A DNA stretch of 36,069 nt from a virus, in IMG/VR virus record IMGVR_UViG_3300025132_000126, positions 1 to 36,069 of that record, one strand, 5' to 3'. The first letter of the stretch is position 1, and every line of letters begins with the position of its first letter. A program made the position numbers and the translations under genes. Of the stretch, positions 31,741-34,290 are shown one piece after another. The notes beneath the pieces are model-generated. The model was not told where the DNA came from and ran no database searches. It worked only from the letters and a program-made list of their open reading frames with translations.

Positions 31741-32508
31741 ATGCAAGGAGTTAACGAAGATTTCATCGAACATAGTGATGATTTTATTTCAATATACCAC
31801 AATGTATTCCCCAAGAGTAATTGTGATCAGATAATCAAGAAATTTGACTTTCTTGAGAATGCATGTATGCACAATGATGAAGTCAAGAGACTACATCAAG
31901 AGTGGGAGGAAAGCGGGCATAATATGAATGCCATGGATGGAGAGAAACAATTTAATAATGGACGTGGTGGTAGAATGGATCGGGCATATAACCTGATTCA
32001 CATTGATGATTATTGTACCAGTACATCATATGATCCTGCAATACGGGACGAAGGATGTATTTGTAGTGTTTCATTAGTGAGTGAATACTTATATAATGCC
32101 ATTGATGATTATATGAATCACTATGGTACATTAAGAAAGAGACACGTTTATAGTAATTTTAACAAGGTACAAAAGACACCACCAGGTGGTGGATATCATG
32201 TATGGCATGATGAGTTGGGAGAATCTGTACAACACAGTGACCGAACCCTCGTCTGGATGCTATATTTGAATGATGATTTTGAGGGAGGAGAGACAGAGTT
32301 TTTATATCAGAAAAAGAGAGTACAACCATCACCAGGCACGATTGTCATTTGGCCAGCACAATGGACACATCAACATAAGGGTAACATGGTATTGAAGGGA
32401 TACAAGTATATTGTAACAGGATGGATACACACTATGTGGACAGATCATAATATTGCAGGTACTCTTATTGCACCTGATGCACCACCAGAAAACTCAGTTA
32501 TGATTTAA
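31741..32508 (+). CDS. 2OG-Fe(II) oxygenase, prolyl-4-hydroxylase-like
   Basis: In this 255-residue protein, residues 145-190 carry TPPGGGYHVWHDE, with His156-x-Glu158 (or His153) as likely iron ligands, then LVWMLYLNDDFEGGETEFLY. The C-terminal VQPSPGTIVIWPAQWTHQHK supplies the distal His, and YKYIVTGWIHT the 2OG-binding basic residue. This is the P4H-type double-stranded beta-helix. Such phage enzymes may hydroxylate proline in virion or host proteins. Its position after the collar genes and behind a late promoter makes tail proteins a reasonable candidate substrate. It converges with the GIY-YIG gene, overlapping 4 bp at the stops. Confidence 0.8.
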   Translation: MQGVNEDFIEHSDDFISIYHNVFPKSNCDQIIKKFDFLENACMHNDEVKRLHQEWEESGHNMNAMDGEKQFNNGRGGRMDRAYNLIHIDDYCTSTSYDPAIRDEGCICSVSLVSEYLYNAIDDYMNHYGTLRKRHVYSNFNKVQKTPPGGGYHVWHDELGESVQHSDRTLVWMLYLNDDFEGGETEFLYQKKRVQPSPGTIVIWPAQWTHQHKGNMVLKGYKYIVTGWIHTMWTDHNIAGTLIAPDAPPENSVMI

Positions 32509-33266
32509 TTGGCATAGTACCAGTAATATCCTTTCCATGTCCTTTTACCAGGATATAATAACGACTTCCTGATACCACCGCCACGTTTACCATTAATAGT
32601 ACGTTCAGCATTAGATATACTTTCATATATTTGAGTCTTCTTACCATTAGACTTATGTACACCATATATCTTACGTTTGTGTAGGTTCTTACCTATCTTT
32701 CGCCATGTGTACCCGTATGCTTCCCATCCATTACGGGCAGCAAGTACAATATTGCCATTTTTCTTCTTATCACCAGCAATATCAAGGGCAGCATCACTTA
32801 TACTATCCCATATCTTTATCTCTCCAGTCTTTATATTAGTTCCCTCTATCTTCTGTTTCATGTGTGTGCCATCTCCCCTATGCTCTTCACACATAAATCC
32901 CCATTTCTCTCCTGATGCTACCTTCTTATTAATACTCTTCTTTATATTGTTGACCCACTCTTTAGTCTTATCCATATTCTTTATTATTATCTTCTCTGCT
33001 ACCTCACGATTATTATATTCACTCTTCAGTTTATCAATATAATAGTCCTTACGCTCTTCTAATCTATCAGTTGTTGTTTCCTCTAATACACTTATATTAA
33101 ACCGACCCGTTCCAAGATTGTTAATATCATTATATAAGTCCTTATGAGTATTATTTGTTATGTGTTCTTTCCATACCTTGTTTAATGGTAGAATTGTAGT
33201 GCCAACATATTGTTTCTTATTCACTTTGTTGGTAATACAGTAGATTGTACCTTGTTTTATTGCCAT
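32505..33266 (-). CDS. GIY-YIG homing-type endonuclease with two C-terminal DNA-binding repeats
   Basis: The 253-residue protein is read leftward. Residues 6-23 (GTIYCITNKVNKKQYVGT) match the GIY-YIG motif with YVG as the second element. A helical middle follows. Two repeats near the C-terminus, IKIWDSISDAALDIAG and TQIYESISNAERTING, each end in a GY.W/GYYW unit and resemble NUMOD1/IENR1 DNA-binding modules used by homing endonucleases. It is the only leftward gene apart from gp4 and is convergent with the oxygenase gene. No split gene is visible nearby, so it appears free-standing. A promoter lies at 33395-33423. Confidence 0.82.
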   Translation of the reverse strand: MAIKQGTIYCITNKVNKKQYVGTTILPLNKVWKEHITNNTHKDLYNDINNLGTGRFNISVLEETTTDRLEERKDYYIDKLKSEYNNREVAEKIIIKNMDKTKEWVNNIKKSINKKVASGEKWGFMCEEHRGDGTHMKQKIEGTNIKTGEIKIWDSISDAALDIAGDKKKNGNIVLAARNGWEAYGYTWRKIGKNLHKRKIYGVHKSNGKKTQIYESISNAERTINGKRGGGIRKSLLYPGKRTWKGYYWYYAN

Positions 33267-33394: not shown

Positions 33395-33423
33395 AGCATA
33401 GCATAAGACTCGGAGTTTGTCAA
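33395..33423 (-). promoter_or_regulatory. Leftward sigma70 promoter TTGACA-N17-TATGCT (extended -10)
   Basis: On the minus strand TTGACA (33423-33418) is followed 17 bp later by TATGCT (33400-33395), preceded by TGC for an extended -10. It points to the GIY-YIG gene at 33266 and would give a leader of about 120 nt. The upstream side abuts the palindrome array (first copy at 33441). Confidence 0.55.
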
Positions 33424-33554
33424 CCCCACCGCCCCCAAATCTCGTCGAGACCTGAGCATTATGATCTAGTCGAGGTCTGCGCATCATAAGTCTCGACTAG
33501 CTTTCGCGCATCATACATCATCTCGACTAGAATGTTCACAAACCGTAACAAATC

Positions 33555-33583
33555 TCGACGAGATCACATAAATATGCTATACT
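33555..33583 (+). promoter_or_regulatory. Rightward promoter P1, TCGACG-N17-TATACT (extended -10)
   Basis: TATACT at 33578-33583 is preceded by TGC (extended -10) and lies 17 bp after TCGACG (33555-33560), which is part of the fifth palindrome copy. A protein bound there would cover the -35. The start would be near 33590, ahead of the small reading frame at 33615. Confidence 0.5.
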
Positions 33584-33614
33584 TATCATATACCTCACAC
33601 AATCTAGTCGAGCC

Positions 33615-33749
33615 ATGTACGAATGGTCTTATGAGTATCTCGTCGAGCTTCCCGACGTAGAGCAGGAATCGTGCAAACATCTCGACGAGAATACGCAGGC
33701 ACGAGACGTACATAATCTCGTCGAGCTTGTGCCCATTCCTGATGCATGA
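33615..33749 (+). CDS. Possible 44-residue protein made of the palindrome repeats
   Basis: The frame runs from ATG at 33615 to TGA at 33749 without interruption. Palindrome copies 7, 8 and 9 fall in the same frame and are translated as L-V-E, L-D-E and L-V-E; the protein begins MYEWSYEYLVELPDVEQESC and is acidic. It lies just after P1. A ribosome binding site is weak (GTCGAG, itself the sixth palindrome). It may be a true small protein or an accident of the array. Confidence 0.3.
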   Translation: MYEWSYEYLVELPDVEQESCKHLDENTQARDVHNLVELVPIPDA

Positions 33750-33755
33750 TATAAT
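33727..33755 (+). promoter_or_regulatory. Rightward promoter P2, TTGTGC-N17-TATAAT
   Basis: TTGTGC (33727-33732) and TATAAT (33750-33755) are 17 bp apart. Palindrome copy 9 ends directly before the -35 and copy 10 (33759-33767) covers about +1 to +6, an arrangement expected of operators around a regulated promoter. The next gene begins at 33790. Confidence 0.6.
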
Positions 33756-33789
33756 AATCTAGTCGAGATTCTAACACGCATCATACTCT

Positions 33790-33981
33790 ATGTCAACTCT
33801 TCTCAGTCAAAAACGCAAAGTCTCGGTCGAGCTCGAGATCGACGCATACGCGGATCTAGACGTGCAGGTGCTGCGGGCGCTAGATTGGCACAAGATTCTC
33901 ATGTTAGAATCAGATGAGACCGTACGTGTCAGTGTGCAAGAGGGTGAGGACCAGATCGATGAATTATATTATTCTCAATAG
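33790..33981 (+). CDS. 63-residue acidic protein, probably early
   Basis: It begins MSTLLSQKRKVSVELEIDAY and continues ADLDVQVLRALDWHKILMLE. The protein is acidic with an alternating strand pattern. The codons for VSVELEID include an imperfect palindrome (CTCGGTCGAG), and base use is richer in G+C than in the late genes. It is the first gene behind P2. The stop codon falls inside a hairpin (33972-33998). No family recognised; an anti-host or regulatory role is possible for an early phage gene but not shown. Confidence 0.6.
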   Translation: MSTLLSQKRKVSVELEIDAYADLDVQVLRALDWHKILMLESDETVRVSVQEGEDQIDELYYSQ

Positions 33982-34110: not shown

Positions 34111-34139
34111 TATGTGCCACTAATTAAACTGTCACACTG

Positions 34140-34161
34140 AACCACCACGGGGTGGTTTTTT
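34140..34161 (+). terminator. Rho-independent terminator
   Basis: ACCACC (34141-34146) pairs with GGTGGT (34151-34156) around ACGG, extended by A34140-T34157, and is followed by a T run. AACTGTCACA precedes it at 34127-34136, and TATATT follows at 34166, the same order of elements as at 22691-22734. Confidence 0.8.
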
Positions 34162-34171: not shown

Positions 34172-34290
34172 AAGAGTGGGAAACAAAACTGGCATCCATT
34201 GGGTTAGGTGCAAGTCCTAAACGTAAAAAGAAGTCAATGAGTTTAAGTCCACGTTTTTGTTTCTCGCACCCAATTTATTTCAGGAAGCAG

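Follow-up and report, generated by a model that had tools for sequence, protein, structure and literature searches.

The window, that is the whole stretch of DNA that was analysed (36,069 bases, IMG/VR virus record IMGVR_UViG_3300025132_000126), is a fragment of a T4-like cyanomyovirus, whose tail, baseplate-hub, UvsW-type helicase and methyltransferase genes match cyanophage families. Ten exact copies of the 9-bp palindrome CTMGWCKAG lie at 33441-33767, with tail-like and 2OG-oxygenase genes to the left and small ORFs without assigned role to the right, in agreement with the late/early gene junction proposed in a preliminary description of this DNA. We infer that the small-gene cluster is early from gene size, position, host-type promoters and general knowledge of cyanomyoviruses. 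Known RNA families and tRNA were sought in the window and none was found. The genes, elements and sites of the locus are as follows (no strand is assigned to the sites).

32505..33266, minus strand: GIY-YIG + NUMOD1 endonuclease-like gene, divergent from the array; it often, not always, adjoins arrays in relatives
33441..33449: site 1, CTCGTCGAG, exact match
33466..33474: site 2, CTAGTCGAG, exact match
33492..33500: site 3, CTCGACTAG, exact match
33522..33530: site 4, CTCGACTAG, exact match; in the spacer of the minus-strand promoter-like sequence 33538-33510
33554..33562: site 5, CTCGACGAG, exact match; overlaps the -35 of the plus-strand promoter-like sequence 33555-33583
33604..33612: site 6, CTAGTCGAG, exact match
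33615..33749, plus strand: 44-aa micro-ORF inside the array, its position matching a conserved micro-protein (PSSM2_098)
33639..33647: site 7, CTCGTCGAG, exact match; in the micro-ORF as L-V-E
33681..33689: site 8, CTCGACGAG, exact match; in the micro-ORF as L-D-E
33717..33725: site 9, CTCGTCGAG; in the micro-ORF and 1 bp before the -35 of 33727-33755
33759..33767: site 10, CTAGTCGAG; just 3' of a plus-strand -10 and abutting a minus-strand -10
33790..33981, plus strand: 63-aa acidic protein (phrog_12516), heading the small-gene cluster and conserved beside arrays
34114-34135: hairpin-like GTGCCAC/CTGGCAC element, with a terminator-like stem and T run after it at 34139-34158

No further copy of the motif is present in the 36,069 bases, and dinucleotide shuffles of the window gave a mean of 0.43 copies with a maximum of 2. 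The earlier count of ten copies with none elsewhere in the window is thus borne out, and the motif, clustered and far above the shuffled expectation, does not occur at background frequency. The start-to-start distances of 25, 26, 30, 32, 50, 35, 42, 36 and 42 bp confirm the irregular 25-50 bp spacing described before. Each window site is preceded by T (10/10) and nine by AT; AT-CTMGWCKAG-AT is also the form of most of the 808 sites in related loci, the search pattern itself having forced AT at one site per array. When about 8,000 half-site/gap patterns were scanned in three array-bearing genomes, CTMG with a 1-bp gap was the top palindrome cluster, with log10 p values of -25.5 (G001), -17.5 (G003) and -12.0 (S-T4).

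The array is shared with relatives, the search for which had been suggested with the first description: a pattern of three sites with variable gaps retrieved at least 119 IMG/VR stretches with such arrays, and arrays are also found in the cultured phages P-SSM2 (66031-66168), P-SSM5, S-T4 and S-SRM01 (three arrays) and in AG-345-F15, a single-cell Salacisavirus contig. Among the IMG/VR matches listed, nearly all motif copies fall within clusters. Larger contigs agree with this, one array holding 9 of 10 copies (146-kb contig) or 7 of 7 (101-kb contig), and most large contigs have one main array; some phages carry additional arrays, of 3-4 sites, ahead of other small genes. S-SKS1 has kept two sites, one on each side of a perfect promoter. 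The 14 other cyanomyoviruses examined lack arrays and have scattered motif copies only; other palindrome arrays were looked for in array-less phages, and the matches inspected (P-SSM4, S-PRM1) look like coding repeats. In S-T4 (MH412654.1) the array is present twice with identical spacing, at 2748-2933 and 174317-174502, as if the record ends overlapped by about 9.5 kb through terminal redundancy or assembly overlap.

Host genomes were rejected as a source of the array. A scan of the genomes of 84,980 cellular species, which required three ATCT-type sites and would miss lone host operators, gave irregular arrays only in contigs with genes of the same phages, apparently mis-binned, the remaining matches being regularly spaced repeats that are coding by appearance. 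Three of these array-carrying cyanophage contigs in bacterial MAGs are L187 (Rhodobacteraceae MAG RGAJ01000223), L191 and L198.

The small protein encoded downstream of the array (33790-33981) leads back to the same element: with its family as query, the 650 bp upstream held three or more sites in 54 of 65 loci, at a density of 6.1 per kb upstream versus 0.22 elsewhere in the loci, the query alignment having been built from array loci and hence favouring close relatives. This family was rejected as the DNA binder, having no convincing Pfam or PDB relative. Further copies of the hairpin-like sequence GTGCCAC-N8/9-CTGGCAC, or its CTGTCAC form, lie for the most part in the small early-gene module near arrays (G001 at about 54.6-58 kb, G003 at about 51.7-54.5 kb, P-SSM2 at 66592, S-SKS1 at 150584), and copies are also found in S-PM2 at 2186, 3868 and 20117. 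Some 36 bp of the window (about 34244-34279) are 97% identical to an unannotated stretch of S-SSM7 and include a 22-bp exact match to P-TIM68.

To assess the conservation of the sites, homologous arrays were aligned pairwise (1,115 pairs). The bases C1, T2, G4, C6, A8 and G9 are 97.5-99% identical, whereas positions 3, 5 and 7 are 78-83% identical, as in the spacers, nearly all of their substitutions being C/A, A/T or G/T; since the pairs are not independent, this conservation is taken as a pattern, without a p-value. The choice of C or A in each arm would fit an amino-group read-out in the major groove. Between the window and L048, L074 and L108, 3 of 90 site bases are changed versus 45 of 231 spacer bases.

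A micro-ORF of 44-56 aa is common inside the arrays (48 distinct sequences), encoding a Tyr/Asp-rich micro-protein of the array phages with the consensus MYDDYDLDY...YARDGQDYESLAYRHYA, to which the annotated PSSM2_098 of P-SSM2 belongs. Its third codon positions are the most variable, which indicates that it is coding. In a codon test keyed on the Leu-Asp-Glu peptide, Asp at the sites is encoded by GAC in 66 of 78 cases versus 169 of 512 in the remainder of these ORFs, and Glu by GAG in 71 of 79 versus 36 of 79; Fisher tests on nearly the same counts (67 for Asp) gave p values of about 1e-18 (Asp) and 2e-9 (Glu), both too small because the micro-ORFs are related. The constraint on synonymous positions inside the sites indicates that the DNA word itself is selected. 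The arrays hold several copies of a protein-type site, above chance and under selection, and to judge from these sequence data the array is probably a conserved cluster of protein-binding sites.

The arrays are also rich in promoters of the host sigma-70 type. Perfect TTGACA-N16-18-TATAAT sequences occur at 4.83 per 10 kb inside arrays versus 0.174 outside, a 28-fold difference. Grouping of similar sequences left 15 perfect-promoter families, and in 12 of them a palindrome lies in the spacer, 0-3 bp past the -35, as in TTGACAt[CTCGACGAG]ttatctgTATAAT or in the P-SSM2 promoter at 66059, TTGACAat[CTCGACTAG]atctggTATAAT; in 6 of 15 one-mismatch promoter families, the palindrome lies at or just past the -10. 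Promoters with at most two mismatches number 118 versus about 14 with shuffled spacers, and of those that have a known direction and no more than one mismatch, 30 face the small early gene and 4 face away (counts not de-duplicated). By a looser test, a nested promoter is present in 43 of 86 arrays with at least five sites and in 15 of 64 smaller ones, the random control giving 11%. Across relatives, the sites thus overlap promoter elements, which are sequence matches, at fixed positions. Helical phasing of the sites, strong at first, became non-significant once related intervals were removed. The promoter-like sequences of the window are the following.

33395..33423, minus strand: TTGACA-17-TATGCT, before the leftward endonuclease-like gene; contains no site
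33510..33538, minus strand: TGAACA-17-TATGAT, with site 4 in the spacer
33555..33583, plus strand: TCGACG-17-TATACT, extended -10; -35 inside site 5
33727..33755, plus strand: TTGTGC-17-TATAAT, pointing to ORF 33790; a sequence match only, with 3 mismatches
33768..33796, minus strand: strong TTGACA-17-TAGAAT, directed leftward across the array, with site 10 abutting its -10

In the window the site-nested promoters are weak (3 mismatches), and the strongest one, 33796-33768, fires away from the early genes; its layout with a site abutting the -10 recurs in other arrays. The layout at 33510..33538 is the same in L048, L074 and L108 but with a perfect TATAAT.

Taken together, the sequence data make it likely that the array acts as an operator of many sites, at which a dimeric regulator would repress the sigma-70 promoters of the early genes in a T4-like cyanophage. 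In this model the palindrome CTMG-W-CKAG would be recognised by a small DNA-binding protein in dimeric form; bound in the spacer between -35 and -10, on the -35 or right after the -10, it would block the host RNA polymerase. The other sites of the array, most of them spaced by 16-65 bp, would allow joint binding of many dimers that coat or bend the DNA, and the divergent promoters could thereby be shut in a switch-like manner, for example once the early genes have done their work. The sites, their conservation and distribution, the promoter geometry in relatives and the conserved gene downstream are observed; protein binding, repression rather than activation, and timing are the parts of this model that we infer. 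Repression is the simplest role for a protein bound in the spacer or at the start site, since promoters with consensus -35 and -10 hexamers at 17-bp spacing need no activator. The extra sites suggest cooperative binding, and the additional arrays of 3-4 sites before other small genes suggest one regulator for several early operons. The cooperative binding of a dimeric protein put forward in the preliminary description is therefore retained for a regulator, on the strength of the base conservation, the fixed sigma-70 promoter geometry and the relatives; the replication-origin and partition/packaging functions offered with it have gained little support.

The leading candidate for the binder, favoured tentatively from gene content and predicted fold, is the phage's own SpoVT-AbrB/MazE-fold protein (phrog_661 family, 57-65 aa). 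In relatives its gene lies about 5 kb downstream of the array, in the same early cluster, a position past the end of this window; the median distance is 5 kb in the 18 of 21 loci with enough downstream sequence where it is found. In the close relative L048 a divergent copy lies about 5.3 kb downstream; other members are encoded at 69222-69413 in P-SSM2 and, as QPX48150, in S-SRM01. The family was detected in 4 of 4 array-bearing genomes and, at that threshold, in 1 of 8 array-less genomes, weaker matches being present in other array-less ones. It is found in every array-bearing isolate tested, 15 of the 18 loci retrieved with it as query have an upstream array, and its presence correctly foretold the array in AG-345-F15; it is also found in the array-less phages Sf-CH8, ACG-2014f and S-CAM7. 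This co-occurrence leans on one conserved gene module, so the gene may be hitch-hiking. Pfam MazE_antitoxin matches 13 of 27 members (best E 4.9e-5), and EcMazE (2mrn), AbrB and SpoVT are among the best PDB matches by Foldseek of an AlphaFold model of the candidate (pLDDT 84), with probabilities up to 0.99 (EcMazE 2mrn) but E-values of 0.06 and above. The candidate is thus predicted to have the swapped-hairpin fold. The family is very acidic, with few basic residues past the N terminus.

Other proteins could occupy the sites. Early transcription of cyanomyoviruses is thought to use the unmodified host sigma-70 polymerase (PMC2984593), so that a host factor could act at the array, coupling early transcription to the state of the host or being titrated off its chromosome. 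That the phage binder is as yet a candidate speaks for this reading, which is nevertheless improbable given that irregular arrays were seen in cellular genomes only in the mis-binned cyanophage contigs and that the array-less S-PM2 and S-PRM1 share the host of S-T4, WH7803. The GIY-YIG/NUMOD1 protein encoded next to the array might be a homing endonuclease turned autorepressor, with the array as its operator and target. T4 I-TevI autoregulates, and an array lies upstream of the gene in 38 of 41 members of this family. In the window, L054 and L058, V or E stands at what we take to be the position where GIY-YIG motifs usually have their catalytic Arg, and the protein may, from its sequence, be catalytically dead and repurposed for DNA binding. 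It was rejected as a universal binder, since it was not found in P-SSM2, S-T4 or S-SKS1 and since, of the 36 loci whose flanks are long enough, only 14 have it near an array; the autorepressor reading is quite improbable. Its relatives in ACG-2014f and S-CAM7, a point in favour of this reading, adjoin different repeats: the intergenic regions at 2380-2580 of L137 (ACG-2014f) and 1849-1992 of L138 (S-CAM7) have no CTMGWCKAG array and hold AATAGAA-like repeats and 9-bp CCATAGAGN units, possibly another cis-element at the equivalent place.

A role other than transcriptional control has also to be weighed. In a replication origin, the sites would be iterons for an initiator or origin-melting protein and the promoter would give the primer transcript, as happens at certain T4 origins. 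The density of the palindromic repeats, their place in a long intergenic stretch by a strong promoter, the single main array of most large contigs, a local fall of GC skew toward zero around the arrays of four genomes and the single theta origin predicted for Syn9 (PMC2984593) are in agreement with this proposal; it is nevertheless improbable, since the GC skew keeps its sign across the array in P-SSM2 and S-SRM01 (full records) and in G001 and G003 (partial contigs), no switch of AT skew was seen there either, palindromic sites with irregular 25-50 bp spacing differ from the regular direct repeats of iterons, arrays recur every few kb in several genomes, 3-4 per genome and each before small genes, no initiator-like neighbour gene was recognised, and many cyanomyoviruses are without the array. 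The assembly of many copies of a two-fold site would also suit a ParB-like or terminase-associated protein that acts there in partition, packaging or DNA condensation, a reading that has little support and is very improbable: several arrays per genome sit upstream of several early gene groups, and no partition genes were found among the annotated neighbours examined. Both functions leave the promoter geometry unexplained. Finally, the words could be L-D-E or L-V-E codons of a repetitive peptide, since the conserved micro-ORF overlaps the arrays and reads the sites as LDE. The sites, however, extend beyond the ORF and into other frames, the variants with K=T are stops in that frame, and the GAC and GAG bias at the sites points to selection on the DNA beyond the protein alone; a protein-coding repeat is almost certainly not the explanation, and as the sole one it is refuted by the synonymous-position conservation inside the sites.

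The operator cluster proposed here has parallels in known systems. In the accounts of Cluster A mycobacteriophages drawn on here (PMC6550527, PMC9283540), stoperators are, like the array, many copies of a short phage-specific site and act with a phage repressor on lytic transcription, as the array is proposed to do; they are asymmetric, genome-wide and bound by a monomeric repressor in temperate phages, whereas the array sites are palindromic and clustered at early promoters in lytic-type T4-like phages. In lambda-type early operators and divergent switches (phi11, TP901-1), as far as the accounts used describe them, palindromic operators overlap divergent promoters as they do here, usually with about three operators between divergent repressor genes where the arrays have 4-11 sites, each of 9 bp; an HTH repressor was not identified here. 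The array would work in the manner of phage operator clusters and stoperators, differing in palindrome, number, clustering and host group. SpoVT-AbrB and MazE proteins, whose swapped-hairpin fold the candidate is predicted to share, bind DNA as dimers; the candidate differs in being very acidic and in having no toxin partner identified. In T4 the MotA box replaces the -35, and T4-type promoter/stem-loop cassettes are phage-specific elements at promoters between small early genes. The arrays, likewise phage-specific promoter elements and with the hairpin-like GTGCCAC-N9-CTGGCAC nearby, carry consensus TTGACA -35 hexamers, unlike a MotA middle promoter in which the box at about -30 takes the place of the -35; cyanomyoviruses also lack motA and asiA (PMC2984593).

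An earlier description of the array was sought under cyanophage promoters, origins, AbrB and the sequence itself, and none was found in a literature in which subscription papers were thinly covered, which agrees, within that coverage, with the statement that no named element with this consensus was known to its author. Since the array overlaps strong promoters for the first genes of the virus, it is probably an unreported early-infection switch. Cyanomyoviruses are without those proteins by which T4 reprogrammes the polymerase of its host (PMC2984593), and the timing of their early transcription is for this reason an open question. Speculatively, and with a modest chance of being right, the arrays might belong to a widespread regulatory system of T4-like cyanophages in which an AbrB/MazE-fold phage protein, akin to antitoxin-type regulators but without toxin, binds them at one or several early promoters and serves as the master switch for shut-off (or for sister-phage exclusion), taking the place of the T4 Alt/ModA/AsiA/MotA system that these phages lack. 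The finding provides a cis-element whose consensus is defined and which cultured phages (P-SSM2, S-T4, S-SRM01) carry, together with a short list of candidate trans-factors, and a motif that marks early-gene modules in metagenomic cyanophage contigs.
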